A stretch of 32,177 nucleotides of DNA, taken from NCBI GenBank assembly GCA_017435525.1, contig JAFSEW010000008.1:1-32177 (forward strand), given 5' to 3'. This DNA comes from Oscillospiraceae bacterium. Its GTDB lineage: Bacteria > Bacillota > Clostridia > Oscillospirales > Oscillospiraceae. A program made the translations under genes and the position numbers. Positions 14,495-32,177 of the stretch are shown in pieces (position 1 is the stretch's first letter; each line of letters opens with the position of its first letter). The notes beneath the pieces are model-generated. The model saw nothing but the letters and a program-made list of their open reading frames with translations. It was not told where the DNA came from and ran no database searches.

Positions 14495-14504
14495 AACAGC
14501 CTCC

Positions 14505-16160: not shown

Positions 16161-16187
16161 ATCCATTCTCCTTTTGCGGTTTTTCTC

Positions 16188-16216
16188 ATTGTAGCACGGA
16201 TTTTGCTGCGCGTCAT
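16188..16216 (-). promoter_or_regulatory. Promoter of the GH13 operon
   Basis: Minus strand ATGACG (16211-16216), a 17-bp spacer and TACAAT (16188-16193), about 30 bp before the ATG at 16160. Confidence 0.45.
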
Positions 16217-16227
16217 TAAAAATCTCG

Positions 16228-16256
16228 TTGACAGAGGAAAATCCTGCCGATACAAT
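16228..16256 (+). promoter_or_regulatory. Promoter of the GH36-glycerate kinase operon
   Basis: TTGACA (16228-16233), a 17-bp spacer and TACAAT (16251-16256): near consensus. The predicted leader is only about 12 nt before the ribosome binding site. Confidence 0.75.
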
Positions 16257-16274
16257 GAATTCAACAAGGAGGCG

Positions 16275-18536: not shown

Positions 18537-18548
18537 GGAGGCAAACCC

Positions 18549-19778
18549 ATGGAAATATATCGCGATGCGAAAGCCATTATGGATGCGGCTTTATGCGCTG
18601 CCATGCCCGATACCGCCGTGGAAAAGGCTTTGCAGAAGCTGCCGGAAGTTACCGGCAAACTGGTGCTGATTGCGGCAGGTAAGGCTGCCTGGCAGATGGC
18701 TGCGGCTGCTTACAAGACGTTAGGCGATAAGATCAGCGGCGGCGTGGTCTGTACCAAGTATGACCATTGCAAAGGGCCCATCGGCAATCTGATTCTTTCG
18801 GAGGGCGGGCATCCGGTGCCGGATGCCAATTCCTATGGGGGTACCCAGCTGGCCATCGATGCGGTGCAGGGTCTGGGAGAAAACGATCTGGTGCTGTTTC
18901 TCATTTCCGGCGGCGGCTCTGCGCTGTTTGAAAAGCCTCTGGTTCCGGAGGAAGAAATGGCGGATATCACCCGGCAGCTGCTGGCCTGCGGCGCCGATAT
19001 TGTGGAAATGAACACCCTGCGCAAGCGGCTTTCCGCTGTGAAGGGCGGCAAGTTCGCCAAGCTCTGCGCCCCGGCAAAGGTGTTTTCCATTATTCTTTCC
19101 GATGTGCTGGGTGACCCGCTGGATATGATCGCCTCCGGCCCTGCCTATCCCGATTCTTCCACCCGGGAGCAGGCTCTGGCAATTATTGAAAAATATCAGC
19201 TGCGGCTCAGCGATGCTGCTATGGCGCTGATGGAGCAGGAGACGCCCAAGACCCTTGCCAATGTGGAAAGCCATATCACCGGCTCTGTGAAGCAGCTGTG
19301 CGCTGCCGCCGCAGAAACTGCGGAAAGCCTGGGCTATAAGCCAGTGGTGCTTACCGCAAGCCTCAGCTGCGAAGCCAGAGATGCCGGAAGCTTCCTGGCG
19401 TCCATTGCCCAGTACCACAGAGCTTCCGGGGAGAAGCTGGCCTTCATTGCCGGTGGCGAGACCGTGGTGCATCTGACGGGTAAGGGCAAGGGTGGCCGCA
19501 ATCAGGAGCTGGCGCTGTCCGGTGCCAGAGGCATCGCCGGCATGGAAAATGCGGTGCTGTTCTCTCTGGGCTCCGACGGTACCGACGGCCCCACCGATGC
19601 CGCAGGCGGCATTGTGGACGGCACCACCAACCGGAAACTGGTGGAAAAAGGCATTTCCATCGATGCGGTGCTGAAAAATAACGATGCCTACCATGCTTTG
19701 CAGGCTGTAGACGGCCTTATCGTTACCGGCCCCACCGGCACCAATGTCAATGACCTCTCGGTGCTGCTGCTTGGATAA
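18549..19778 (+). CDS. gckA: Glycerate 2-kinase (GckA/TtuD-type, MOFRL domain)
   Basis: 409 aa. The N-terminal half carries IAAGKAAWQMA and SEGGHPVPDANS and the LISGGGSALFEKP loop; the C-terminal MOFRL part has GGRNQELALSGARGI and GSDGTDGPTDAAGG. These are hallmarks of the GK-II glycerate kinases that form 2-phosphoglycerate from D-glycerate and ATP. AAGGAGG lies 7 nt before the ATG, 12 bp after the alpha-galactosidase stop, so it is cotranscribed. A kinase of glycerate next to a galactosidase is not an obvious pathway; it may use a sugar-acid product. Confidence 0.92.
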   Translation: MEIYRDAKAIMDAALCAAMPDTAVEKALQKLPEVTGKLVLIAAGKAAWQMAAAAYKTLGDKISGGVVCTKYDHCKGPIGNLILSEGGHPVPDANSYGGTQLAIDAVQGLGENDLVLFLISGGGSALFEKPLVPEEEMADITRQLLACGADIVEMNTLRKRLSAVKGGKFAKLCAPAKVFSIILSDVLGDPLDMIASGPAYPDSSTREQALAIIEKYQLRLSDAAMALMEQETPKTLANVESHITGSVKQLCAAAAETAESLGYKPVVLTASLSCEARDAGSFLASIAQYHRASGEKLAFIAGGETVVHLTGKGKGGRNQELALSGARGIAGMENAVLFSLGSDGTDGPTDAAGGIVDGTTNRKLVEKGISIDAVLKNNDAYHALQAVDGLIVTGPTGTNVNDLSVLLLG

Positions 19779-19781
19779 TAC

Positions 19782-19817
19782 AAACCGCCGATGCACCTGT
19801 GTGCATCGGCGGTTTTG
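19782..19817. terminator. Bidirectional terminator between convergent genes
   Basis: ACCGCCGATGCAC, loop CTGT, GTGCATCGGCGGT with TTTTG after it on the plus strand and TTTG on the minus strand. It lies between the gckA stop and the GH2 stop. Confidence 0.85.
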
Positions 19818-21605
19818 TTATTCTTCGCAGGCGGCTTTACGGCGGTTGATGGCGGAGAGGATTGCTAGGTCGAACTTGGGAACTCTTCCTTCGTAGGTAA
19901 ACAGGCCGTTTTTCTCCTGCTCCACATCCGTCAGCTGGGTATAGCAGAAGCCGAAAATCTTCGGATTGTCCAGCAGGGCATCGGTGAGGCCTTTGTAGCG
20001 GGCATAGAATTCTTCGAAGCTTCTTGCGGCGTTGCCGTAGCTCCAGCTCTTTTTCCGCTGCGCGTCCGTCTCTACCTGGATGCCGATGCCGCCGTATTCC
20101 GACACATGCACCGGTTCACCCTGCCAGGTCTGGCGGGTTCCTTCGGTGCGGCCATTGTAGCGCCAGCGCAGGTGGTGCCGATCCCACAAGGTAGCTTCCG
20201 TCACCAGCTTATCGTAGTTGGCTTTGAAGATGGCAGGGTCCTGCTCATAGTCGTGGACATCGTAAATGTCGGTTTTTACATGGTAGTTGCCGCTGGTGTC
20301 CACACAGGGGCGGGTGGGGTCCAGCAGTTTGGTCTGCTCATAGATGAGGCGCACTACATCATTATTCTGCTCCACGCTCTGGCTTTCCGGGAAGTGGTGG
20401 CAGGTGTCCCAGGTTTCATTGAAGGGGCACCAGGTAATCAGCGCCGGATGGCTATAGTCCCGCCGGACGCTTTCCAGCCACTGGGGCAGGAAAATGGCCA
20501 CGGCGTCCAGGGTCGTGATGTCCATGCTCCAGCTGCCGTATTCCCCCCAAACCATGTAGCCCAATCTGTCTGCGTGGTAGAGATACCGGGGCTCGAAGAC
20601 CTTCTGGTGCATCCGGGCACCGTTGAAGCCCGCAGCCATGCCGCACTGAATGTCGCGAATCAGATCTTCTTCCGTGGGGGCGGTGATGATGCCTTCCGGG
20701 TAATAGCCCTGATCCAGGATCAGCCGCTGGAAAACCGACTTGCCGTTGAGATAGAATTTGCCGCCTTCCAGCCGGATGCTGCGCAGGCCGAAATAGCTCT
20801 TCACTTCGTCCTGAGCGAATTTCAGCACCAGGTCATACAGCCGCCCCTTACCCAGCTCCCAGGGATGGATCTCGGAAAGAGGAAGTTCCAGCTGCGCCGT
20901 GACGGATTTCTGCTTCTTGGTGGCGCTGCCCACCAGACGGCCTTCGTAATAGGCTTCGGCGGTGAAATCTCCGGTGCCGGCCAGCTCCGCGTCGATGCTC
21001 AGGGTGCCGTTTTCCAGGTCGGGAGTCAGCCGGGCGTAACGGATGTAGCTTTCGGGAACGATCTCATACCACACCGTCTGCCAGATGCCGGTGGTGCGGG
21101 TGTAGTAAGCCCGATAGGAATCGTACCGGGCGGACTGTTTGCCACCGGGCTGCTTGAAGGAGCGGATATCATCGTAAGCGGCTACGGTAATTTGGTTGCT
21201 GCCGGGCTGCACCCAGGGGGTGATGTCCAGGTCAATGGGGGTGTAGCCGCCCTTATGGGAAAAGCCGGTGCTGTGGCCGTTGATCCACACTTTTGTCTCA
21301 TAGTCGCAGGCGCCGATATGGAAAAGGATCCGGCTGCCCTGCAGGTCGGCTTCCGTCAGGAGGATCTCCTTCTTATACCAGACGCAGTTCATAAAATCCT
21401 TGTGTTCCACCCCGGATAGCTTGCTTTCCGGGCAGAAAGGCACGGTGATGGTGCCGCAAAGATGCTTTTCTTCCGGCAGGCCCCGCTCTTCACCGGAGCA
21501 GGAATGATCAATTTCAAATTCCCAGGTGCCGTTGAGATTTTTCCAGTGCTTCCGCTGCCACTGGGGGTTGGGATGCTCCGGCCGGGGAATCGGGCAGATT
21601 GCCAT
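19818..21605 (-). CDS. GH2 glycoside hydrolase (beta-galactosidase/beta-glucuronidase-like)
   Basis: 595 aa. Jelly-roll sugar-binding domain (about 1-185; NLNGTWEFEI, KVWINGHSTG), Ig-like domain (about 185-280) and a TIM barrel with acid/base Glu397 in WCPFNETWD and nucleophile Glu503 in VSEYGG. Shorter than LacZ (over 1000 aa) and near the size of beta-glucuronidases, but the NxK-type glucuronate motif is not evident, so the substrate is left open. Cytoplasmic. Start at the ATG 21605, 8 nt after GAGAGGAG; an in-frame TTG at 21623 overlaps that site and is rejected. It lies 43 bp after the small gene at 21649 and is probably cotranscribed with it. Confidence 0.9.
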   Translation of the reverse strand: MAICPIPRPEHPNPQWQRKHWKNLNGTWEFEIDHSCSGEERGLPEEKHLCGTITVPFCPESKLSGVEHKDFMNCVWYKKEILLTEADLQGSRILFHIGACDYETKVWINGHSTGFSHKGGYTPIDLDITPWVQPGSNQITVAAYDDIRSFKQPGGKQSARYDSYRAYYTRTTGIWQTVWYEIVPESYIRYARLTPDLENGTLSIDAELAGTGDFTAEAYYEGRLVGSATKKQKSVTAQLELPLSEIHPWELGKGRLYDLVLKFAQDEVKSYFGLRSIRLEGGKFYLNGKSVFQRLILDQGYYPEGIITAPTEEDLIRDIQCGMAAGFNGARMHQKVFEPRYLYHADRLGYMVWGEYGSWSMDITTLDAVAIFLPQWLESVRRDYSHPALITWCPFNETWDTCHHFPESQSVEQNNDVVRLIYEQTKLLDPTRPCVDTSGNYHVKTDIYDVHDYEQDPAIFKANYDKLVTEATLWDRHHLRWRYNGRTEGTRQTWQGEPVHVSEYGGIGIQVETDAQRKKSWSYGNAARSFEEFYARYKGLTDALLDNPKIFGFCYTQLTDVEQEKNGLFTYEGRVPKFDLAILSAINRRKAACEE

Positions 21606-21648
21606 AAACAACGCTCCTCTCAAAATGGAATAGGCTTATTGTGATGCG

Positions 21649-21876
21649 TCACAGTTCCGTAAACTCGTAGATGTAGGTCACGGTGCCGTTGCTGTAGGTG
21701 TAGACGGTTCGGCCGTCGTCCGGAGTTTCTTTTTGGAATTTATCAAAATCCTTGCCGTGTTTGGCGCGAACAAAATCATCGGTGCTGTCAAGCTCAGCTT
21801 CTTCAAAAAAAGTCTGGGGATGCGCAGCGCCTGCACAGCCGTTCAGAAATTTGGCGACGATCTCGTATTCTTTCAT
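21649..21876 (-). CDS. Small protein of unknown function
   Basis: 75 aa from the ATG at 21876, which has GGGAGG 6 nt upstream; a longer reading to 21930 lacks a ribosome binding site. The sequence (MKEYEIVAKFLNGC at the start, ending YTYSNGTVTYIYEFTEL) is soluble, with an acidic middle and a beta-rich tail. No family is recognised. Two cysteines would be needed for metal binding and only one is present. It precedes the GH2 gene on the same strand and has its own promoter (21931-21959). Confidence 0.7.
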   Translation of the reverse strand: MKEYEIVAKFLNGCAGAAHPQTFFEEAELDSTDDFVRAKHGKDFDKFQKETPDDGRTVYTYSNGTVTYIYEFTEL

Positions 21877-21930
21877 AAAGAACCTCCCGCGTGCTGATAA
21901 AAAGCAAATATTTTTGTTCAGTATGCGCAT

Positions 21931-21959
21931 AGTTTACCATAAAATTGATGGAATTTCAA
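21931..21959 (-). promoter_or_regulatory. Promoter of the small protein-GH2 transcript
   Basis: Minus strand TTGAAA (21954-21959), a 17-bp spacer and TAAACT (21931-21936). Confidence 0.5.
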
Positions 21960-21971
21960 GCAAAAACGCTT

Positions 21972-22000
21972 TTGAAAATTTTTCTCTTCCGCGCTATAAT
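21972..22000 (+). promoter_or_regulatory. Promoter of the CarD-like gene
   Basis: TTGAAA (21972-21977), a 17-bp spacer and TATAAT (21995-22000), about 38 bp before the ATG at 22039. Its -35 is 12 bp from the divergent promoter's -35. Confidence 0.75.
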
Positions 22001-22038
22001 ACATTCAGAAAACAGCCGGGAAGGGGAGGAAAACGGAA

Positions 22039-22542
22039 ATGTTTCAAATAAATGATGTGATTATCTATGGCGCGCAGGGCGTTTGCCGGATTGCGGCCAT
22101 GGAAGAGAAAAATATCAGCGGTGTGAAGAAGGAATTCTTTGTACTGAAACCGATCAACGATGCTACTGCCACAGTCTTCGTGCCTACCGACAAGGAAGCG
22201 GCTTTGAAAAAAATGCGCCGGATCTTAACGGAAAGCCAGATCCGGGGCCTGCTGGATGCCGCAGCAGCGGAAAGAACCACCTGGATCGCCCAGGACAATG
22301 CCCGTAAGGAACGCTATCGCCAGCTGCTGGCCGGGGGCGATCAGCTGGCCTTGATCTGCATGATAAAGAGCATCTATGAACATAAGAAACAGTGCGATGA
22401 AAAGGGTAAGCGCCTGCATATGATCGACGAACACTTTCTCAAAGAAGCGGAGCAAATGCTGTTTAACGAGTTTCAGTATGTGCTGAAGCTAAACACAAAG
22501 GAAGAATTGCGCCAGCGTATCCTGGCAGGCACAGAAGCATAA
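22039..22542 (+). CDS. CarD-like transcriptional regulator
   Basis: 167 aa. The N-terminal RNA-polymerase-interacting Tudor-like domain is evident (FQINDVIIYGAQGVCRIAAMEE, then FFVLKPINDATATVFVPTD), and residues about 70-165 are helical, as in CarD/CdnL and the TRCF N-domain. CarD proteins bind the RNA polymerase beta subunit and modulate initiation at rRNA and other promoters. The AEE/W-type DNA-contact residues are not easily identified, so it may be a divergent paralogue. GGGGAGGA is 8 nt before the ATG. Immediately downstream is the element boundary. Confidence 0.88.
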   Translation: MFQINDVIIYGAQGVCRIAAMEEKNISGVKKEFFVLKPINDATATVFVPTDKEAALKKMRRILTESQIRGLLDAAAAERTTWIAQDNARKERYRQLLAGGDQLALICMIKSIYEHKKQCDEKGKRLHMIDEHFLKEAEQMLFNEFQYVLKLNTKEELRQRILAGTEA

Positions 22543-22558
22543 GGCCATGTTACTGCTA

Positions 22559-22600
22559 TAAAAAACGCCGAAAACCTGCAACAGCAAGGTTTTCGGCGCT
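22559..22600 (-). terminator. Terminator of the truncated tRNA-Arg, now also after the CarD-like gene
   Basis: CGCCGAAAACCT (22566-22577) and AGGTTTTCGGCG (22587-22598) form a 12-bp stem. The T-run (TTTTTT) is on the minus strand, directly downstream of the tRNA 3' end at 22606, so it is read as the original tRNA terminator. On the plus strand it is followed by only CTGTTTA and works less well for the CarD-like gene. Confidence 0.75.
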
Positions 22601-22605
22601 GTTTA

Positions 22606-22650
22606 TGGCACTCCAGAAGGAACTTGAATCCCCGACCTTCCGCTTAGGAG
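22606..22650 (-). other. 3' half of a tRNA-Arg(CCU) gene: attachment-site scar of the ICE
   Basis: On the minus strand the sequence reads as a tRNA from the anticodon loop CTCCTAA (anticodon CCU, 22644-22650) through the variable and T arms (loop TTCAAGT with flanking GGGGA/TCCTT) to acceptor strand CTGGAGT, discriminator G and CCA (22606-22608). Upstream of the loop (22651 and higher) no D arm or ACTCCAG acceptor strand is found. A 3' half flanked by element genes is the classic product of tyrosine-integrase insertion into a tRNA gene. The missing 5' half lies on the element side, so the intact tRNA should be at the far end, beyond the window. Confidence 0.85.
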
Positions 22651-22785
22651 TATGACTTACCGTATACCGCACGGTCTGGATATAACTTTCCGATACTTTC
22701 TCACTCGCTCAATTATCTGTGGTACTCGATTTTTGTGTTGCAATTTGCACAAAATGCCGATGTCTGATGCTTGAATCTGAGCGTC

Positions 22786-22807
22786 AAATTAGCAGGAAAT
22801 TAGCAGG
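22786..22807. repeat. Tandem 11-bp direct repeats near the attachment site
   Basis: AAATTAGCAGG occurs twice back to back (22786-22796, 22797-22807), about 140 bp inside the element and about 80 bp before the excisionase start. One helical turn apart and beside an attachment scar, these look like arm-type integrase or excisionase binding sites. Confidence 0.5.
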
Positions 22808-22851
22808 AATCTTCCAAAAATCAAGTTGAAACCACAGAATTTTGCATGGCA

Positions 22852-22868
22852 TTCGTTAAAATAACGAA
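22852..22868. promoter_or_regulatory. 17-bp palindrome before the excisionase gene
   Basis: TTCGTTA-AAA-TAACGAA just upstream of the ribosome binding site. A repressor operator for the small HTH protein is plausible. Confidence 0.4.
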
Positions 22869-22888
22869 GCGAAATAATGGAGGTAATC

Positions 22889-23083
22889 ATGGAAACTATC
22901 GAAAAAAGCTATCCTGAGCGCCGGACCTATACGGTTGATGACATTGCAAGAATTCTGAATATCGGCCGTACTTCCGCATACATCCTCGTCAAGGAAGGAC
23001 ATTTCAAAATCGTGCGGATTGGCAACGCAATTCGGATCTCCAAGAAATCCTTTGATGCATGGCTGGATAGTTTGGAACTGTAA
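22889..23083 (+). CDS. Excisionase-family HTH protein
   Basis: 64 aa. YTVDDIARILNIGRTSAYILVKEG is an excisionase/MerR-like winged HTH (HTH_17 type), followed by RIGNAIRISKKSFDAWLDSL, a wing and a final helix. Such proteins bind attachment-site DNA and direct integrase toward excision or act as small regulators; here it is the first gene inside the tRNA scar. GGAGG is 5 nt before the ATG at 22889; an upstream ATG at 22877 overlaps that site. The tandem repeats at 22786 are candidate binding sites. Confidence 0.85.
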   Translation: METIEKSYPERRTYTVDDIARILNIGRTSAYILVKEGHFKIVRIGNAIRISKKSFDAWLDSLEL

Positions 23084-23091
23084 TATAGCAC

Positions 23092-23125
23092 AGAACGCCA
23101 TAGGCAGCGATGCCTATGGCGTTCT
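23092..23125. terminator. 15-bp perfect hairpin after the excisionase gene
   Basis: AGAACGCCATAGGCA, loop GCGA, TGCCTATGGCGTTCT. The stem is long and perfect, but neither strand shows a strong T-run after it, so it may be a 3' stabiliser rather than a full terminator. Confidence 0.6.
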
Positions 23126-23196
23126 TACCTGTAGTGGAGTTTCTACCAGACCGTCAGGTATACCTTTGAAAACTATGTCCAGGTGGTTTGGAAGTA

Positions 23197-26100
23197 TTAT
23201 CTATTCATTCTGATTGAAAGAGTTCGTTTCAATTCATGCAAATGAGCACGTTTTTGAAGTGGGAAGTAATAAGACAGTGCTGCAAAGAAATGAGCCAAAG
23301 AGTTGTTGACAGAAGAATCGACGTAGTAAACGGTTTCGACAGGGAACATACAAATGAATTCCTCCGAGTTGTTTGCAATGTCAGATAGAATGAATTCTGT
23401 AGCGATTTGGTATTCATTTAGATCTCCAGCTAGAATAGCGTCTTTGCAAATTTCCGTTGTTCGCTCGATGCAAGTTGAAATGTCTGGCAATCTTGAGAAT
23501 CCTGTTATTGCTTCCGGCTTTGCGTATTCTTTGTATGGAGCGAAACGTGGTGTCTTGAGTACCTCATTAAGGAGCATATTAGGTAGAGAAAGAACAAATC
23601 CAACAATTGCTATCTCTGCCCGCATCCTTAATGCGTTGGAATAGTTTGCTTCCTTCAAATCAATATCATCAAGTCTATTGACCAACTTTTGAGATGCTTT
23701 TTTCACAAGTTCCGGTGTCATACACCACGTAGCAAGTAAGTATGGTTCGATCCAACGAATATACTCCAGCTTATTCTCCTCAGGTATAGCAATAATGTTG
23801 GATATTAACATTAATTGCTGATCTACCAAATGATCTTCTGAAGAATTGCTTGATAGGCTAATATCACACATAAAATCGCCCAAATGTGTAAGCAACCAGT
23901 TAGAAGCGGCGTAGCGCCATTCATTAGGCTGATCTATGGACCATACTGACTGTAGAGTATCATTGAATGTCCTAAATAGCTCAGATGTATATCCTGCAAA
24001 TTCAGACACATTTGAGGCGCATATTCGATCCTTTCGAACACCAAAGGATTGGCTAAGCGCAAAAGCAACTGACCTACGAACATTGATAAGCTGGTCATAT
24101 TCCTCTAGGATTCCGTCTGCGTTGCACTGAGATAGTGACAATCTATTTACCAAATATTCAGAAGGTGGTACAAAAAAGCTATAGCCCATAGAAAGCATAC
24201 CATCGATCAAATTGTAGTATTCGCTGGTGTCGATTAGGTTGTCTCGATGAAGTGCAGAAACCAAATCAAAAGTTGTGAATACTCTACTTTTCTTTTTTCT
24301 GGAACCAATTTGATAATAACCGCTACATAAGCGATCATCCACTATAAACGTTACGGATGTGCCGATGGCTATGCTCAATTCGTCGTAGAGTAGTTGGATA
24401 TAGGGGTTGTCATCATGTCCTTTGGAAGCAACCACAGGTTTCAAACTTACTTTTTTGTCTTCATATAGAGTTGCTACAAGTTTACGAGACTCATCTAACC
24501 ACTGTGCAGCGTTTGAACGCTTCTCGTGAGCATCTGCCTTGTCGTGAATTGCTCTAGTCAGGCTCTCAGGCAAATAGATGTCAAATAGGGAAAATACAAT
24601 GCTAAGCGCATTGGCTTCCAGTAACTCAGTGAGGACTTGATTACCAAGAATCAGTTTACATTGTGGCTTGACTTGTGCAACAACATCATGATTTACTTTA
24701 GCGTCATCATAATCTGGATGCGGAAGGTGCAAAGTATCCAATGCCGCGTAGAAATCATGTGGTTGAAGATTATTGTCATCCCATTCAGAAGGAACTAGGT
24801 TGCCAGATATGCTACCAACAGGGTGATCCTCAACAATATATGCACCATTTGTTTTAGCACATTGTAGCATCAAATAATCGTATGGGGCATAGGGAATGTC
24901 GTCAGATATAGGTTCGAGCAACTGAAAATCGTTGAAGCTAAGCTCAAGCAGTGCTTTGGATAAGCGAATGTCCTTTTGCACAACACTCGTTTGTACATTT
25001 TTTAGCTTATTGATATCGCTAATCCAGATTTCAAAGAGGTGATTACTTAACCATATTGTTTTGAATGCCTCACATACTTTTTCAAACAAATTAAGTTTGC
25101 ACATTGTCAAGCAAGTTGTGTAATCCAAAAGCAATGGTAAATTATAGTCAATATGGAGGTCTTTATTGACGCCAAATCGACCGTAATAGGGTGATGCTCC
25201 TGTTTGAATAGACCAGAGGAAGCCGCCAAATACATTACTATCAGGATTCGTTACCATATGTATTGAGCATTCTAAACCTCTATAGCTTTCATCCAATCTC
25301 TCATTATGCTCCTGCTGTTCTCTCATTACTTCTTGGATCTCATCAAAAGTAGCAGCTCGGACGGCTCTACCTTCATTCATATCTTTGTAAAGAAGAGTAC
25401 TGAGATTCTGGGATAGGGCGGAGTGATCATGACCAGTCATAATTGCAACCATACCAGCAAATTTAGAAATCTGTTCATTTTCAGGATTGTGCTGATGTAA
25501 TAACAATGCGTAATGGTATGCCATATCTGGTCTATCACCTTGTATTAACTCAATGAGCAGCTGGTATACTTCTAAATCGTATAGATCCTGGTCTGCGTAG
25601 GAGCGAAGTACTTGAATTGCCTTTTGGGGTTGTCCCTCAGAAATATAAGTACGTGCCTGTACTACTGTTAGTCTGGCGTTCGTTGTCAGGTTTTCGAAAG
25701 AACTTGCTATCGTACGGGCATCTTCGAACTTCGCTAAGGCGATCAAAGAATTAAGCTTATGCTGACGGATATAAGTTGAACTATCGCCAAGTTCTTCGGC
25801 CTGCTCAACAACCTTCAGGCATTTTGGGAAATCATCTTTACAGTAATGCGCTTCTGCCAAATGCTCAAGAGCTGCCAATTCACCGGTTGCTCGCCACCAT
25901 TCTTTTGCTACTTTTATTATCTCAGTCCATTTATTATGTTTTCTGCAAATGATTATTGCATTACGGAAATCGACTGTCAATCTGGTTTGTAGCGCCAAAG
26001 TAATAGCTTTTTTCACAAGGGGATTAAAGACTCTGGAATTCGAGGCATTTTGGATGCCAATTTCATAGCGTTCTTTCCTGTCAGGAAGAAGTTGGATTTT

Positions 26101-27891
26101 CTTTATCATTTTTGCTGCGGATGAATATTCCTTGCAGTCAAGCAATAGCAACAATTCACACTCTTCAACCGAGAGGGCGACGTATGTAGCTATTAACTCT
26201 TTGTGATCATTAAAGAAAATCTTTGCTTGCTCAAATTCTCCCATTGAAGTCAGAAGTTCAAGCTTAGCAAATGCCCGCATTCCGGTTTTATCATCGGTGA
26301 CATCAAGTGCAATAAAGTCATCACACATTTTTTCAGGAATATTAATCTTATTGCTAACGCAATAAATAATATCAAGAGGATTTAAATAGCTGCATTTTCG
26401 AAAATTTGCTAACCAGAATTCTCTATCTTTCCCTGGGAGCGCATTACTTACAACAATCAAGGACCATGCAACCTTGGCACGCAAGGAGGGGTTTACTTCT
26501 GACGATTTTCTCTCATATACCTCTTCCAAAATGCCATAAGCAGCAAGTAAGTCCTCTTTCTGATTTTTATTCGGGTAAAAGTAGTAATTGGATACAAATG
26601 CGAAGCTCATCCTGTCTGCGTCAGGATATATTGAATTCATCGCACTCCAGTAATAGAGTAATGCATCAATAAGGGACAATTCGATGTCTAGTTTTATTCC
26701 GGAAGCTGCGGACTTAATATATTCATGTCCTTCTGCGAAGCAATCAGATTGAAGAGCAGCTAATGCAAGTAATCGATATGTATGCTTATCTAATGTTAAA
26801 CTGGTGGCATCTACGACTGCCTTTACAGTATTGAGTGAGGCTTTTTCGGTGGCTAAACATGTTAGGTAGGCATTGAGCTTCTGAGTCGAATCAATGGGTT
26901 TTATGATAGCCTTTGCGTCTTCAATTTGCCCTTTGTCGAGGAATAAATAAGCACGGTAAACGCTATCATCTAAGTGAGAATCTGCGTTTTTGGCTTCTTG
27001 GTAGTATTTCGCTGCTTCTTCCGGATGCCGATCTAGCAGCATCCAAATTGCTCCGATATAGTAAAACTCAGCCTTCTTTGCACCAGAACATGTTCTGTCT
27101 GGCAAGCGATTTAGAAAATCACGGAGTTCCTTTTGGCTTTTCAGAAGTTCGCCATTCTCTCGGTCATTCCGAATAGGTTCAAATAACTCGCTGAGTACAA
27201 TATCCATCTCGGATACATATACAGGATCAACTGCTTGTAAGGAAACAATCGGAGTATTTGGTGATTGGGCACTATTATCGTTTCTCTCGACAGTGCATTG
27301 AATTCCCAGGTTTGACAGAAGTGATCTAAAACGTAGACCACAAATACCATGCAATCTGTTTGCGGTCTTGTCTGCCTCAGTTTGTGACACAAGCATGCCA
27401 ACAACATGCCCGTTCAGGAAAATTGGCGCACCGGAGAAACCTTTGAAGGTACTGCGTCGTTCACCACTTGGATTGAATGCAGTATTGTATTGATCCTGCT
27501 CTACATCAGTATCATCAAAAGATCGTACGTGCGTTAATACGATACTATCCGCTTTCTGAGTATCAGAGGGGAAAAAACCATATGCGCGAGCAGTAATGCC
27601 TTCCGTAAAAGAATCATCACCAAACGTACACAAGGAAAGGTTTCGTTCATCAGGCATTTTCAAAAGTGCAAGCGGTCGGGTTGACTCACTAATAGAAGAA
27701 ATTACAGTGCAATTAATGGGATGGTCGTCTCCCTCAAATGCAACAGTAACAGGAGAATTAGAAATAAAGAAGGGTGTGACAACATGATCCACCGTCAGTA
27801 TTAAGTCTGGTGCAATTTGGATTCCACTGCCACGTTCGTCTCCGCACTGAATGCTACAAAGCAATTTATAGATTCCCTGCGTTTCGCTCAT
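23197..27891 (-). CDS. Trypsin-like peptidase fused to long helical/TPR repeats and a PIN-like region
   Basis: 1564 aa, AT-rich. Residues 1-200 are a trypsin-like fold: GSGIQIAPDLILTVDHVV with His36, and FKGFSGAPIFLNGHVVGM with Ser153 in a GFSGAP setting. The strand where the Asp normally sits reads STRPLALLKM, with Pro in its place. Residues about 230-850 are pairs of short helices of TPR type (e.g. AEFYYIGAIWMLLDRHPEEAAKYYQEA). Residues about 905-960 (LLLDYTTCLTM) and 1079-1200 (LILGNQVLTELLEANAL, FIVDDR) look PIN-like; 1200-1564 is helical and unassigned. No GxxxxGK[ST] P-loop was found. It is translated by an ATGA overlap from the MBL gene. Likely a sensor-protease effector in host defence, inferred from architecture. 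Confidence 0.8.
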   Translation of the reverse strand: MSETQGIYKLLCSIQCGDERGSGIQIAPDLILTVDHVVTPFFISNSPVTVAFEGDDHPINCTVISSISESTRPLALLKMPDERNLSLCTFGDDSFTEGITARAYGFFPSDTQKADSIVLTHVRSFDDTDVEQDQYNTAFNPSGERRSTFKGFSGAPIFLNGHVVGMLVSQTEADKTANRLHGICGLRFRSLLSNLGIQCTVERNDNSAQSPNTPIVSLQAVDPVYVSEMDIVLSELFEPIRNDRENGELLKSQKELRDFLNRLPDRTCSGAKKAEFYYIGAIWMLLDRHPEEAAKYYQEAKNADSHLDDSVYRAYLFLDKGQIEDAKAIIKPIDSTQKLNAYLTCLATEKASLNTVKAVVDATSLTLDKHTYRLLALAALQSDCFAEGHEYIKSAASGIKLDIELSLIDALLYYWSAMNSIYPDADRMSFAFVSNYYFYPNKNQKEDLLAAYGILEEVYERKSSEVNPSLRAKVAWSLIVVSNALPGKDREFWLANFRKCSYLNPLDIIYCVSNKINIPEKMCDDFIALDVTDDKTGMRAFAKLELLTSMGEFEQAKIFFNDHKELIATYVALSVEECELLLLLDCKEYSSAAKMIKKIQLLPDRKERYEIGIQNASNSRVFNPLVKKAITLALQTRLTVDFRNAIIICRKHNKWTEIIKVAKEWWRATGELAALEHLAEAHYCKDDFPKCLKVVEQAEELGDSSTYIRQHKLNSLIALAKFEDARTIASSFENLTTNARLTVVQARTYISEGQPQKAIQVLRSYADQDLYDLEVYQLLIELIQGDRPDMAYHYALLLHQHNPENEQISKFAGMVAIMTGHDHSALSQNLSTLLYKDMNEGRAVRAATFDEIQEVMREQQEHNERLDESYRGLECSIHMVTNPDSNVFGGFLWSIQTGASPYYGRFGVNKDLHIDYNLPLLLDYTTCLTMCKLNLFEKVCEAFKTIWLSNHLFEIWISDINKLKNVQTSVVQKDIRLSKALLELSFNDFQLLEPISDDIPYAPYDYLMLQCAKTNGAYIVEDHPVGSISGNLVPSEWDDNNLQPHDFYAALDTLHLPHPDYDDAKVNHDVVAQVKPQCKLILGNQVLTELLEANALSIVFSLFDIYLPESLTRAIHDKADAHEKRSNAAQWLDESRKLVATLYEDKKVSLKPVVASKGHDDNPYIQLLYDELSIAIGTSVTFIVDDRLCSGYYQIGSRKKKSRVFTTFDLVSALHRDNLIDTSEYYNLIDGMLSMGYSFFVPPSEYLVNRLSLSQCNADGILEEYDQLINVRRSVAFALSQSFGVRKDRICASNVSEFAGYTSELFRTFNDTLQSVWSIDQPNEWRYAASNWLLTHLGDFMCDISLSSNSSEDHLVDQQLMLISNIIAIPEENKLEYIRWIEPYLLATWCMTPELVKKASQKLVNRLDDIDLKEANYSNALRMRAEIAIVGFVLSLPNMLLNEVLKTPRFAPYKEYAKPEAITGFSRLPDISTCIERTTEICKDAILAGDLNEYQIATEFILSDIANNSEEFICMFPVETVYYVDSSVNNSLAHFFAALSYYFPLQKRAHLHELKRTLSIRMNR

Positions 27892-29090
27892 GATAGGTCA
27901 CCTCCATCATCAATTGAATCAGTTTGCAGAAGTGTTCGATAAGAATATTTACTTTCAGCCCAATCATTACGAAAAAGCCTATATACTGGGTTTTGATAGT
28001 TAAAGAATAAGGTTCGTAGAAAACTGGCTGGACGGGTTACGATTTTTGCAATCGTTTCTTTGTTTGGATGATCAAATTTACAGCCATCTGTGGAGATAAG
28101 AAAGAATCTGCTGTCAACCAAATCAAATAGTTTCATGCAATTGTGAGCCGAACCATGGTGAGGTAATTTAATGACCTCAAAGCATCCATCTTCACAGAAT
28201 TTCTGCATCCAGTCGTTGAGAGCGTTTGTCAAATCATTCTGTGTAGCATCTCCCGGGAATAAGAACTTTTTTCCATGATATCGTATGCATATTGCAATGG
28301 AAGAAGCATTTGTAATCGACGAGTCATTGCTAAAGCTGGTATTAGCCCATTTTTCAATGTCCTTGATATCGACTTTACTTTCAGAGATAGGCTCAATCCG
28401 TTCGATACAAGTATCCTCATCTAACAGAACGTTTTCAAATGCTGTTTCACCATCAGGAGTTATTGCAACAGACGTACCAAAAACAGCCTGATTCATTTTA
28501 ATGTGCAACTTTGTTTTGAGTTTTGACAGTGCTTCTTGCGTTGGCAGTAAGATGTCAATGAAGAACCCTGGTGATACTTGTATGGTGGATAATGTATTAG
28601 AAATTGCTACACCATCTATGAATCTATTGACGACTAACCCTCTTTTTTTCAGTAGTGTAGCCAAAGACTCGGCTTGTGTTGCACTAATTGGCCCCTCAAT
28701 GTCTTGGGTACTATGCCAATGCATGGCGTTTATTTTTCTAAATGCTTTTTCTTCCAAAATTGTTGCTTCTGCTGCATCATGGATAGCGACTTGCTGCAAT
28801 CCATTAAACCATACTTCTTTTACAAGGGCGCTATATGTAAGGTTGCTAAATAGCTTAAGAGCCCCACCAATATGATCCCCATCAATATGTGTAATAAGTA
28901 ATAGATCGATGCTTTTTCCTGCAGCGATTAAGTTATCTAGAAAAACTTTAAGTGATGTTTCCCAACTGGATATGGGACCACAATCTATAAGAATATTAAA
29001 CATTCCATTGTTATGTTTAAATTCAAGGAAAAAGCAATCACCGTCTGCGACAGGCAACATGGTTATTCTGTATTGATTCTGATTATCCAA
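27888..29090 (-). CDS. MBL-fold hydrolase (ComEC C-terminal type)
   Basis: 400 aa. ILIDCG, THIDGDHIGG (His68, Asp70, Asp72, His73), FPGDAT (Asp281), LPHHGSAHN (His311 and His312) and DGCKFDHPNKET (Asp340-Pro342) are the metal-ligand motifs of the MBL family that includes the ComEC/Rec2 soluble domain. No membrane helices, so this is a free cytoplasmic enzyme, possibly a nuclease or phosphodiesterase. The first in-frame start is a TTG at 29090, 12 nt after GGAGGGG, with a stop just upstream; an ATG at 29060 has no ribosome binding site. Its stop overlaps the start of the trypsin-repeat gene, so the pair is translationally coupled. Promoter at 29134-29162. Confidence 0.85.
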   Translation of the reverse strand: MDNQNQYRITMLPVADGDCFFLEFKHNNGMFNILIDCGPISSWETSLKVFLDNLIAAGKSIDLLLITHIDGDHIGGALKLFSNLTYSALVKEVWFNGLQQVAIHDAAEATILEEKAFRKINAMHWHSTQDIEGPISATQAESLATLLKKRGLVVNRFIDGVAISNTLSTIQVSPGFFIDILLPTQEALSKLKTKLHIKMNQAVFGTSVAITPDGETAFENVLLDEDTCIERIEPISESKVDIKDIEKWANTSFSNDSSITNASSIAICIRYHGKKFLFPGDATQNDLTNALNDWMQKFCEDGCFEVIKLPHHGSAHNCMKLFDLVDSRFFLISTDGCKFDHPNKETIAKIVTRPASFLRTLFFNYQNPVYRLFRNDWAESKYSYRTLLQTDSIDDGGDLS

Positions 29091-29133
29091 ATCTGAGATT
29101 CACCCCTCCAGCAAGAAGCATATTTTCCATATC

Positions 29134-29162
29134 ATTATACCCAAAACAGATATCCCTGACAA
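29134..29162 (-). promoter_or_regulatory. Promoter of the MBL/trypsin-repeat operon
   Basis: Minus strand TTGTCA (29157-29162), a 17-bp spacer and TATAAT (29134-29139), about 45 bp before the MBL start. Strong, so the pair has its own transcript independent of the ICE transfer genes. Confidence 0.65.
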
Positions 29163-29223
29163 GATGTTCTTGTTTTTCGAATACGGACAACAAAGAGATA
29201 TCTAATCACCAAGGAATGTGTCT

Positions 29224-29260
29224 AAAAGAGTGACTGTTAAGCTCAACAGTCGCTCTTTTT
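29224..29260 (+). terminator. Strong hairpin terminator insulating cargo from transfer genes
   Basis: AAAAGAGTGACTGTT, loop AAGCTC, AACAGTCGCTCTTTT with TTTTTG on the plus strand. No plus-strand gene lies just upstream; that one seems to be missing, which suggests the cargo replaced it. The rest of 29091-29415 (29261-29415) is leader for the initiator gene with no ORF or clear promoter that I can support. Confidence 0.75.
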
Positions 29261-29415
29261 GTATCCCAAAGGGTGAAAAATGAACCATTCTTTACTCTGT
29301 GTGCGGCGAAAATGGAGCCGTCCATATCTTTTTCCATTGGGAAAATTGAGAGGATACAGAGGGGCATATTCCACGAAAATCAACACTTATTCACGCAAGG
29401 AAGGAGGTTAACGAA

Positions 29416-30312
29416 ATGGCAGTTTTCCGCATTGAAAAGACCCGTGATTACACGGTCATGTCAAACCATCACCTTCGGAACTCAGATTTGTCCCTAAAGG
29501 CGAAAGGACTGTTATCCATGATGCTATCCCTCCCGGAAGAATGGAACTATACCACCAGAGGGCTTGCCGCCATCTGCAAAGAAGGTACGGACTGCATCGG
29601 TTCTGCACTCAAAGAGTTGGAACGGACAGGCTATATCGTCCGCAACCGCCTCCGGGACAATAAGGGCAAAATCGTGGATGTGGAGTATGTGATCTATGAA
29701 ACACCTCGAAAGCCAAATCTGGCTCGCCCACATGAGAGCTCGCCGGATGCGGATTGTCCAGATACGGAAAACCCGGATATGGAAAATCCAGGTCTGGATA
29801 ACCCGCCACAAATAAATATAGATAAATCAAGTAACTATCCATCAAAGAAAGATTTATCAAATACTTATGAATCAAATCCTATCCTATCAAATCCCCCTAC
29901 TCCCTCCGGAACAAGGATGGGATCGGATGGGATGGAAACCAGAGAAATCTATCGTGAGATTATTTTGGAGAACATCGACTATGAGATCCTTTGTCAAGAT
30001 CCGAAGGTGGACCGTGAACAACTGGACGAGATCACGGAGCTTATCGTTGATACAGTTTGCACCGCCCGGAAAACGGTACGCATATCCGGCGACGATTTCC
30101 CGGCGGAGGTGGTCAAGGCCCGGTTTCTGAAACTGGATGCATCCCACGTCCAGTATGTCATGGACTGCATGAGGGGCAACACTACCTATATCCGCAATAT
30201 CAAGAAATATTTGCTGGCAGCCCTATACAATGCTCCGGCCACTATCAACAGTTACTATTCCTCCCTGGTACAGCACGATATGTCCGGGGATGGCAAAAGG
30301 GGGCGGGAATAA
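29416..30312 (+). CDS. Replication-initiator-like (RepA_N / DUF6017-type) ICE protein
   Basis: 298 aa. The N-terminus (VFRIEKTRDYTVMSNHHLRN, then LSLKAKGLLSMMLSLPEEW and the HTH TTRGLAAICKEGTDCIGSALKELERTGYI) is the replication-initiator A N-terminal domain found on Firmicute plasmids and ICEs. A Pro/Asn-rich linker (about 105-160) with NPD/NPG repeats leads to a C-terminal domain ending in RGNTTYIRNIKKYLLAALYNAP, the DUF6017-type tail. ICEs use such proteins for circular-form replication or regulation. AGGAGG is 8 nt before the ATG. The downstream pcfB start is the next base after the stop, so they form an operon. Confidence 0.87.
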   Translation: MAVFRIEKTRDYTVMSNHHLRNSDLSLKAKGLLSMMLSLPEEWNYTTRGLAAICKEGTDCIGSALKELERTGYIVRNRLRDNKGKIVDVEYVIYETPRKPNLARPHESSPDADCPDTENPDMENPGLDNPPQINIDKSSNYPSKKDLSNTYESNPILSNPPTPSGTRMGSDGMETREIYREIILENIDYEILCQDPKVDREQLDEITELIVDTVCTARKTVRISGDDFPAEVVKARFLKLDASHVQYVMDCMRGNTTYIRNIKKYLLAALYNAPATINSYYSSLVQHDMSGDGKRGRE

Positions 30313-30792
30313 ATGCAGGAGGAAGTAACCGGCAAATCTGTTGCCCTGATTGTTGACGGTGCCAAAATGAGCGAGCAGGTGCTTGAAAAAGCATTGAAAG
30401 CCTATCTGGACGCCCAGAAGAATAAACAGCCGAAGATCTACCGGGGAAAACAATCCCTGAAACACCTTGCCCAGCAGAATGCGGGGCTGGCGAACATCGA
30501 GATCAGCGATAAGAATATCAAGGCATTTACCCAAGTGGCGAAAAAGTACCATGTGGACTTTGCCCTGAAAAAGGATACCACCGCAGAAAAGCCCAGGTAC
30601 CTGGTTTTCTTCAAGAGCCGGGATGCCGATGCAATCACGGCGGCGTTCCAGGAATTTACCGCTAAGAAGGTGCTTCGCAAGCATTCCATCCGAAAGCGTC
30701 TTGTTCTGGCAAAGGAAAAGACCAGGCAGCAGGAACACAGGCAACTTGACCGGGAGAAGGTCAAGACAAAGGATCGGGGTGTGGAGCTGTGA
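30313..30792 (+). CDS. pcfB: PcfB family conjugation protein
   Basis: 159 aa. DGAKMSEQVLEKALKAYLDA, GKQSLKHLAQQNAGLANIEI and the basic C-terminus (RKRLVLAKEKTRQQEHRQLD) match PcfB/DUF3801, a small partner of the coupling protein in enterococcal pCF10 and in many ICEs. GGAGGA lies inside the initiator gene's last codons, and the start follows directly on its stop. It overlaps the next gene as GTGA. Confidence 0.88.
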   Translation: MQEEVTGKSVALIVDGAKMSEQVLEKALKAYLDAQKNKQPKIYRGKQSLKHLAQQNAGLANIEISDKNIKAFTQVAKKYHVDFALKKDTTAEKPRYLVFFKSRDADAITAAFQEFTAKKVLRKHSIRKRLVLAKEKTRQQEHRQLDREKVKTKDRGVEL

Positions 30793-32177
30793 ACATCAAA
30801 AAGCTGATCCTCACAAACCTGCCCTATTTGCTGTTTGTCTATCCCTTCAATAAGGCGGCCCAGGCCTTCCGGCTGGCACCAGGGACGGACCTTTCCGCAA
30901 AGATCCTTGCCATTGGTGATGGCTTCGCTGCTGCTTTCTCTAGGATGGGGCTGAGTTTTGATCCCATGGATCTTCTGATTGGCATAGCCGGTGCGGTGAT
31001 TCTGCGCCTTGTAGTTTATATGCGAAGTAAAAACGCGAAAAAGTATCGTCACGGAGTAGAGTATGGCAGCGCCCGGTGGGGAACCGCCGCGGATATTGCC
31101 CCGTATATCGATTCCGATTTTTTCCAGAATATCCCCATGACCATGACGGAACGCCTGACGATGGCGAGCCGCCCGAAGCAACCGAAGTACGCCAGAAACA
31201 AAAATATCCTTGTGATCGGCGGCAGCGGTTCCGGCAAGACCCGGTTCTTCTGCAAGCCTTCGCTGCTTCAAGCTCATAGCTCGTATGTTGTGACCGATCC
31301 GAAGGGCACTCTTTTGCCGGAGATCGGCACTTTCCTTGCACGGAAAAAGTACCGAATCAAATGTCTGAACCTAATCAATTTCAAAAAATCCATGAAATAC
31401 AACCCCTTGGCCTATATCCGATCCGAGAAGGACATCCTAAAGCTGGTGAACGCTTTTATTGTGAATACCAAGGGCGAGGGTGAAAAAGCTGGCGAGGACT
31501 TTTGGGTGAAAGCGGAGCGGCTGTACTACACAGCCCTGATCGGCTACATCTGGTACGAAGCCCCGGAGGAAGAAAAGAATTTCATAACGCTGCTGGATCT
31601 TATCAATGCCAGCGAAGCCAGGGAGGACGACGAGACTTACCAAAGTCCCGTTGACCTCCTTTTTGCTGAACTGGAGGAAAAGGAACCTGACCATTTTGCG
31701 GTCAAGCAGTATAAGAAATTCAAAATGGCTGCGGGCAAAACCTTAAAATCCATCCTCATTTCCTGCGGTGCCCGGCTTGCTCCCTTCGATATCAAAGAGC
31801 TGCGGGATCTCATGGAATACGACGAGCTGGAACTTGATACCTTGGGCGACCAGAAAACCGCCCTGTTTGTAATACTGTCGGATACTGATTCGACCTTTAA
31901 CTTTGTGGCTGCGCTCATGTACAGCCAGTTATTCAATCTGCTCTGCGATAAGGCGGACGACTTCTATGGCGGGCGGCTGCCCGTCCATGTGCGCCTGATC
32001 CTGGACGAGTTTGCCAATATCGGTCAGATTCCGAACTTTGACAAGCTGATCGCCACGATCCGAAGTCGTGAAATATCGGCAGCGATCATTTTGCAGTCGC
32101 AGAGCCAGCTAAAGACCATCTACAAGGACGCGGCAGATACCATCGTCGGTAACTGCGACAGCACCTTGTTTTTGGGA
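30789..32177 (+). CDS. pcfC: VirD4/PcfC type IV coupling protein (3' end beyond window)
   Basis: At least 463 aa, open at the window end. GTG start at 30789 overlapping the pcfB stop. Two membrane segments (about 6-22 and 58-78) are followed by the Walker A NILVIGGSGSGKTRFF (GGSGSGKT at about 144-151) and Walker B RLILDEFANIG (Asp406 and Glu407), then SREISAAIILQSQSQL. This is the membrane ATPase that brings relaxase-bound DNA to the mating pore. The order initiator-pcfB-pcfC and the overlaps are those of Firmicute ICEs. Confidence 0.93.
   Translation, partial: MNIKKLILTNLPYLLFVYPFNKAAQAFRLAPGTDLSAKILAIGDGFAAAFSRMGLSFDPMDLLIGIAGAVILRLVVYMRSKNAKKYRHGVEYGSARWGTAADIAPYIDSDFFQNIPMTMTERLTMASRPKQPKYARNKNILVIGGSGSGKTRFFCKPSLLQAHSSYVVTDPKGTLLPEIGTFLARKKYRIKCLNLINFKKSMKYNPLAYIRSEKDILKLVNAFIVNTKGEGEKAGEDFWVKAERLYYTALIGYIWYEAPEEEKNFITLLDLINASEAREDDETYQSPVDLLFAELEEKEPDHFAVKQYKKFKMAAGKTLKSILISCGARLAPFDIKELRDLMEYDELELDTLGDQKTALFVILSDTDSTFNFVAALMYSQLFNLLCDKADDFYGGRLPVHVRLILDEFANIGQIPNFDKLIATIRSREISAAIILQSQSQLKTIYKDAADTIVGNCDSTLFLG

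Follow-up and report, generated by a model that had tools for sequence, protein, structure and literature searches.

A metallo-β-lactamase hydrolase coupled to a trypsin-TPR-double-PIN protein as a probable defence module carried by an integrative element in an Oscillospiraceae bacterium

The pairing of a metallo-β-lactamase (MBL) hydrolase with a trypsin-like protease is already known as an exchangeable effector. The main text of Tuck et al. 2025 (PMC12799240) describes nuclease-protease pairs in AVAST-1, Lamassu, Hachiman and DRT systems, in which cleavage by the protease removes gating loops from a pro-nuclease. In Hachiman and AVAST, two insertions lock the MBL nuclease, and the partner protease cuts each of them at a conserved Ile; in Hachiman it is the oligomerisation of the protease that triggers toxicity. 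A second line of work, by Kaur et al. 2021 (PMC8195603), describes conflict proteins that combine tetratricopeptide repeats (TPR), a GreA/B-C block and a PIN part with exchangeable N-terminal effectors, trypsin included, and the trypsin-TPR-GreA/B-C-PIN architecture is hence also in print; most are stand-alone genes, and the main text names no MBL or lactamase. For its part, the main text of PMC12799240, taken without its supplement (fig. S2C, additional loci), does not contain the word PIN and mentions TPR twice, for canu caspase-nuclease systems. Here we analyse a 32,177-nucleotide stretch of DNA from an Oscillospiraceae bacterium (assembly GCA_017435525.1, contig JAFSEW010000008.1, positions 1 to 32,177), hereafter the window, in which an MBL gene overlaps a gene for a trypsin-TPR-double-PIN protein. 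We think it likely that this pair works like a protease-gated DNase on a TPR/double-PIN sensor and serves as antiphage cargo of an integrative element. What is probably new is the known nuclease-protease pair on this sensor chassis, a combination not made in the main text of either paper. Among the literature matches listed, subscription papers and supplements aside, no title or opening of an abstract described it.

The MBL hydrolase and its gate

The upstream gene of the pair (27888..29090, minus strand, TTG start) encodes a ComEC-type MBL-fold hydrolase of 400 aa, a predicted gated pro-nuclease from its family matches and metal ligands. The downstream gene (23197..27891, minus strand) encodes a 1564-aa trypsin-TPR-HTH-double-PIN protein (HTH: helix-turn-helix), recognised with PADLOC, BLAST, hhalign and an alignment to a homologue from a Lachnospiraceae bacterium (locus L072). 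Their junction, read on the minus strand as ...CTATCATGAGC..., is an ATGA overlap; both open reading frames (ORFs) and the overlap are as the initial annotation of this DNA had described them. The MBL gene immediately precedes the gene for a protease that is part of a larger protein, an order also seen in L072, in its counterpart L073 and in a further locus, L153.

The hydrolase matches Pfam Lactamase_B (2.5e-11). Its best PADLOC match is the Lamassu hydrolase LmuA (3.6e-76), with Avs1a at 5.9e-62; against the NCBIfam Avs1a model it scores 273 bits, below the 420-bit cut-off. A profile of the window MBL and 46 relatives found its best solved-structure matches in ComEC/competence proteins, including 9ic4 and 9vc6. 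The metal ligands H68, D72, H73, D281, H311 and H312 are invariant in 89/89 rows of the MBL alignment, window included, and H68 and D70, singled out in the initial annotation, are part of the MBL motif. That annotation had also allowed for an MBL acting on a nucleotide signal. A weak Pfam Apyc1 match (E 0.004, 17 bits against a 50-bit cut-off) would suit an enzyme that degrades such a signal, in an anti-Pycsar-like manner, or another small molecule instead of DNA. However, the matches to Avs1a, Lamassu hydrolases and the two ComEC structures are far stronger, and HamM, a relative of the window MBL, degrades DNA and not RNA (PMC12799240, main text). The idea gained no support, and we regard it as very improbable.

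Two putative gating insertions interrupt the hydrolase. The first, placed by alignments (residues ~97-137; 28680..28802, minus strand), ends in the motif P-I-S-A, whose I135 (codon 28686-28688) is where a cut is predicted. It is 41-45 aa long in the three TPR-double-PIN systems, and its median length is 42 in the lamassu class and 44 in the avs_stand class, two classes that rest on protease-protein length (480 aa), with Pfam checks for some members and with labels known to be imperfect for L063, L117 and L121. MBLs classed as having no trypsin neighbour, many of them of canu type, have a shorter first insertion (median 15); the window insertion has the length typical of the trypsin-linked class. 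At column 135, trypsin-linked MBLs (n=62) show Ile in 53 cases, Val in 7, Thr in 1 and Lys in 1. Ile is found in 3/27 MBLs classed as not trypsin-linked: L066 and L089, both cut off at a contig end or no more than 360 bp from one, and L117, which has a divergently oriented trypsin ORF. I135 is invariant in 7/7 MBLs and conserved in at least 90% of a set of 47. The second insertion (residues ~192-260; 28311..28517, minus strand) is present in the window MBL with I242 in the motif V-D-I-K, in a loose alignment that leaves the cut position uncertain.

The initial annotation had proposed a protease-activated nuclease or the reverse. Because the MBL has gating insertions and an Ile of the kind cut by partner proteases in characterised relatives, the protease-activated direction is the better of the two; the reverse gained no support. 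Canu systems likewise encode related gated MBL nucleases (PMC12799240, main text), but they have a caspase partner, and the three caspase-linked MBLs in our alignment carry F-G or M-G at gate position 135. With no caspase partner and no Gly gate site in the window pair, membership of canu was rejected.

The protease domain and the sensor region

The 1564-aa protein starts with a trypsin-like protease domain (residues 1-210; 27262..27891, minus strand), found with PADLOC and a protease alignment, that has His36, Ser153 and, where an Asp is usual, Pro73. PADLOC aligns its residues 11-205 with positions 1-200 of Avs1b (1.9e-13), a match that stops at residue 205, and its residues 5-263 with a Lamassu LmuA model (9.7e-11). 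The protease alignment is made of trypsin matches with E<=1e-8 that start by residue 60, L153 not being among them. Its His column holds His in 51/53 rows and 2 gaps, and its Ser column Ser in 53/53; His36 and Ser153, named as catalytic in the initial annotation, fall in these columns. From gene order, MBL ligands, the first gate Ile and the protease His and Ser, the window pair would belong with the nuclease-protease pairs. Strict membership is in doubt if a full triad is defining, and the main text of PMC12799240 does not name the triad as such.

The pairs of Tuck et al. (HamM/protease-HamA, Avs1a/Avs1b, the Lamassu hydrolase-protease and the DRT pair) comprise the same enzyme classes as the window pair. 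Their sensors are HamA/HamB, STAND, SMC or reverse transcriptase, whereas the window has a TPR/double-PIN part and a protease without its Asp. AVAST type I (Avs1abc) has an MBL and a trypsin-like protease in the same order and with the same fusion, but the window has neither a STAND NTPase nor Avs1c and falls below the NCBIfam cut-offs for Avs1a and Avs1b. Among the listed window ORFs, the next one of at least 80 aa on the minus strand, where Avs1c might be sought, is an 81-aa xis-like ORF. Membership of AVAST-1 was rejected given no NTPase match, an Avs1b match ending at residue 205 and no Avs1c among the listed ORFs of at least 80 aa. Membership of Lamassu was also rejected: none of the 20 ORFs scanned in the window, which stops with the contig at 32177, matches the SMC-like LmuB. 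The 1564-aa protein matches no Pfam NTPase family at E<=1, and GK[ST] is absent by eye; as the initial annotation had it, there is no visible P-loop, and no STAND NTPase was found in the protein.

A TPR-like helical region follows (residues ~270-830; 25402..27084, minus strand), based on TPR matches below the curated Pfam cut-offs and on the alignment to L072, in which TPR_19 is above its Pfam cut-off. In searches of solved structures for this protein, the only matches were to TPR regions. Together with the Avs1b and LmuA matches at the N-terminus, this agrees with the trypsin-like start and long helical repeat that had been read from the sequence. An HTH and double-PIN region (residues 845-1345; 23857..25359, minus strand) was assigned by homology and retains D923, D1185, D1186 and R1187. 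The window protein has no direct match to PF24407 at E<=1. A tblastn search of plasmids with the 1564-aa protein gave one relative, a 2134-aa protein of Gloeocapsopsis dulcis (L003) covering residues 845-1337 (pairwise BLAST, 6e-13), which matches HTH_upst_double_PIN (PF24407) at 2e-19 and, weakly, Permuted_GreAB-C (0.0015, below cut-off). With hhalign, a profile of window, L072 and L153 aligned to five plasmid relatives over 505 columns (99.7% probability, E 2e-26). The earlier PIN-like label is justified in that the C-terminal half has homology to what Pfam calls a double PIN region; the PIN identity itself is taken from the Pfam family name and from the main text of PMC8195603.

Used as a query against plasmids, the double-PIN region of L003 matched 10 records; 8 loci were examined, and the other 2 records are of the same species as examined ones. 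Pfam identifies the N-terminus as a caspase in L053 and a serine esterase in L054, while those of L003, L051, L052, L056 and L057 are restriction endonuclease-like by eye, although Pfam names no such enzyme in L003 and L056. The N-terminus of the L055 protein has no assigned family. Within the fetched stretches, an MBL or trypsin match lies beside 0/8 of these plasmid loci with other N-termini.

The window protein shares with the conflict proteins of Kaur et al. a TPR and HTH/double-PIN core with an N-terminal effector. Because the GreA/B-C block of those proteins is absent from it, we treat it as a variant and not as a member. The Pfam GreAB-C model is matched only by L003 (weakly) and by the second gene of an Agrobacterium locus (1e-7), and by neither L072 (PF24388) nor L153. 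On that Agrobacterium plasmid (L054:4058-10563), an esterase-TPR-double-PIN part and a GreA/B-C part are encoded by two overlapping genes, which implies that the parts are separable; the split falls near the boundary where the window protein stops. Among the listed window ORFs, no GreA/B-C-type continuation gene lies beside the pair.

By window numbering, all 11 double-PIN sequences compared share D923, D1186 and R1187; at position 1185, 9 of them have D and 2 have E. Such conservation would be expected if the PIN part were the main weapon, following the proposal already in print for TPR-GreA/B-C-PIN proteins (PMC8195603, main text): the protein would engage RNA polymerase or transcripts and cleave RNA, leaving protease and MBL as a second line. 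Yet the first-Asp position of the second PIN half is unconserved and the first half has no C-terminal acids (by eye, same 11 sequences), so neither half seems complete, and the window protein lacks the GreA/B-C block needed to reach RNA polymerase. We find this reading unlikely. A composite active site or a sensing role is possible for the PIN halves. We infer that the TPR/double-PIN part is the sensor; its cue could be phage RNA, transcription or a nucleic-acid intermediate.

Recurrence and history of the pairing

When genome contigs were scanned with a seven-MBL alignment (A5), at least 592 stretches matched, yielding at least 531 relatives; the best 80 of these were examined. Local profiles showed the trypsin-TPR-double-PIN pairing in 2/80 of these loci, L072 and L073 (Lachnospiraceae bacterium), whose DNA is identical over both genes; the 1928-aa trypsin-TPR-double-PIN protein starts 10 positions after the end of the MBL. 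When the L072 protein was used as the query, L153 (genome G412) was the only further case in 299 genomes of L072's family. Here the MBL is followed by a 452-aa trypsin-TPR ORF (4 bp overlap) and a 1591-aa TPR-double-PIN ORF (13 bp overlap), a split that is either native or a frameshift. Having been found with a sensor-protein query, L153 is an independent case besides the window. By sequence, the pairing is present in three distinct loci, with the MBL directly upstream in each. The initial annotation had feared an adjacency seen in one lineage only, or homologues with housekeeping roles; the adjacency is not confined to the window locus, and the homologues found are not housekeeping proteins. 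Neither 16S nor rpoB turned up in the window's genome, which is 77% complete, and its lineage may be near to or far from those of the other loci. The double-PIN regions of L072 and L153 are ~20% identical to that of the window.

Other searches returned little. Profile A9 found the window only in 150 genomes of the window's family and, in 295 genomes of G398's order, G398 only, plus weak TPR-range matches in three others. The 1564-aa protein had no relative in viral contigs or phages, and neither the MBL alone nor the A6 and A7 alignments had any in viral contigs. The viral scan with A5 gave three loci in which a trypsin ORF comes directly after the MBL, none of them with a double PIN. A double-PIN alignment matched 169 stretches of genome contigs by pattern, with 0 relatives by the scan's own test, and PF24407 gave 0 matches in 398 genomes of the phylum, where the control likewise matched nowhere.

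MBL genes also neighbour trypsin proteins of other make-up. In the window's phylum, trypsin is fused to an Avs2-like NTPase beside an MBL in L035:6736-9675 and L036:6683-9466, the latter also with a sub-threshold nSTAND3, and to a region with weak ABC/dynamin/GTPase matches in L037:6765-9557; these three fusions are possible further sensor chassis. Clostridial loci L083:11159-13960, L087, L093 and L119 combine an MBL with a ~930-aa trypsin protein in which the P-loop pattern is absent (the L083 protein has a weak NPHP3_N match only), and their MBLs lie near the window MBL in the tree, with weak support. In L081:9325-13173, the trypsin protein beside the MBL has 1282 aa, and no part of it is assigned as a sensor domain.

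The double-PIN regions of window, L072 and L153 form one clade (support 100/99). In the MBL tree, built without L073 (identical to L072) and without MBL ORFs >600 aa, L072 and L153 group together (96/96) and the window's neighbourhood is weakly supported. The protease tree and the joint MBL+protease tree did not resolve the three, and holding window, L072 and L153 together was not rejected (p-AU 0.163 for MBL, 0.433 for MBL+protease and 0.405 for protease). All three loci have the sensor in common. Their MBL-protease pairs may go back to one acquisition or to several; a single origin is neither shown nor rejected.

Element context and proposed mechanism

From left to right, the pair is preceded by the 3' part of a tRNA (22606..22655, minus strand; read by eye, ARAGORN reporting no whole tRNA), probably the attachment end of an integrative element, and by an excisionase-like ORF of 81 aa (22856..23101, minus strand; no Pfam match), which we take to resemble excisionase (xis). 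It is followed by two Pfam-identified genes of the element, for a DUF6017/HTH_36 protein (29416..30312, plus strand) and a DUF3801 protein (30313..30792, plus strand), and then by a gene read as a VirD4-type coupling gene that runs off the contig end (32177). None of the window ORFs scanned was recognised as an integrase. The best plasmid matches of the DUF6017 protein are from gut Clostridia and Enterococcus, most of the 222 records being weaker matches from other genera. As to the promoter that the initial annotation had given the pair, a promoter-like site (TTGTCA-17-TATAAT; 29134..29162, minus strand), a consensus match only (11/12), does lie upstream of the MBL gene, but the region has no excess of such sites (12, against a mean of 18.9 in shuffles). 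The pair is AT-rich, as had been noted: GC content is 39.9% in the cargo, 54.7% in the left flank and 50.1% to the right.

Used as a DNA query, window positions 14500-32177 gave matches in 31/40 genomes, own included; among the matches listed, 8 genomes have short matches to 22587-22652, and the cargo region (~23130-29370) is covered by no match but the window's own. Because this region is absent from the listed matches in relatives, the pair is probably variable cargo of the element. Left of the tRNA part lie carbohydrate genes and a CarD-like gene. Elsewhere in the window, two long ORFs with strong Pfam scores overlap on opposite strands, one of the alpha-amylase family (14505-17705, minus) and one of the GH36 melibiase family (14697-18536, plus), whose matched domains may not overlap, and a transglutaminase-like protein with a dockerin match is encoded at 443-3718 (minus).

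The initial annotation had pictured an element-borne, two-gene, Avs1-like module without STAND, its sensor fused to the protease, with a probable role in defence, and the evidence favours this picture: the module is probably defence cargo of the integrative element. Being cargo at the end of such an element, beside transfer genes, it might instead guard the element against rival elements or act as an addiction system. Characterised relatives nevertheless act on phage (PMC12799240, main text), and we consider this alternative improbable, although nothing in the present evidence separates plasmid from phage as the target. The alternatives weighed in this work overlap with one another and with the preferred explanation, and our estimates of them need not add up to a whole.

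The mechanism that we propose starts from what the DNA itself displays: two coupled genes, MBL ligands, gate insertions with I135, protease His and Ser, sensor homology, and recurrence in two further loci. Experiments on relatives (PMC12799240, main text) supply by analogy the pro-nuclease state, its cleavage and DNase action, the role of oligomerisation in activation, and defence. The MBL protein would be made as a locked DNase whose active site is covered by the two insertions, and the TPR/double-PIN protein would be a sensor with an N-terminal trypsin-like protease. On meeting an infection cue the sensor would change state, most likely by oligomerising, and the protease would cut the gate after I135, perhaps also in the second insertion. 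The freed DNase would then destroy DNA and stop the phage at the cell's expense, probably in a death-or-arrest manner.

Several observations weigh against this mechanism, and the missing protease Asp is its main weakness. The catalytic Asp is absent from the proteases of the window (P73) and L072/L073, and by eye from that of L153. In the protease alignment, Asp fills its column in 39/53 rows. Of the 14/53 rows without it, window included, 5 have Pro (window, L072, L073, L091 and L107, the last two of Lamassu type), and the remaining 9 are divided among Ile, Ala, Gln, Glu (one row) and a gap (one row). In the MBL, the I242 column is unconserved within its loosely aligned stretch. L072, L153 and 7/8 plasmid relatives, as aligned, continue past the double PIN with a GreA/B-C block and C-terminal region that are missing from the window protein. 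The MBL neighbour of L072/L073 is expected by construction, because the query was an MBL, and the pairing is rare: 398 genomes of the phylum give the window's own locus and one weak TPR match only. Finally, the double-PIN tree comes with warnings of long branches, of one join between two such branches and of odd letter make-up, and in the MBL tree a well-supported branch (98/95) lies between the window and the other two loci.

The P73 of the protease and the loss of the C-terminal block, at the end next to the xis-like ORF, might point to a decaying locus, whose protease without Asp and sensor without its C-terminal third no longer make a working system. This seems doubtful to us. Both ORFs are open over 5.9 kb, MBL ligands, gate Ile, His36 and Ser153 are kept, and the Agrobacterium core is split near the same boundary into separable parts. 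Moreover, the 14/53 rows without Asp include L091 and L107, where the ORF layout indicates that the other Lamassu-type genes are present. The recurrence of Asp loss in loci with their other parts kept may reflect tolerance and not decay. The absence of the Asp nonetheless weakens, without excluding, the claim that the pair works like a nuclease-protease pair.

A broader proposal, which we offer tentatively and hold short of probable, is that the trypsin-bearing TPR-double-PIN branch is a dedicated sensor for a protease-gated DNase and not a stand-alone RNase. The incomplete PIN halves would sense nucleic acid and drive oligomerisation of the protease, with the window copy, which has no GreA/B-C, as a putative minimal form. 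Since none of the three systems shows the protease Asp, the question arises whether such proteases act as Ser-His dyads. The proposed protease-gated DNase on a TPR/double-PIN sensor joins two literatures: the trypsin form of TPR-PIN conflict proteins would gain a concrete output, and a recently described effector pair would gain a sensor without a recognised ATPase.

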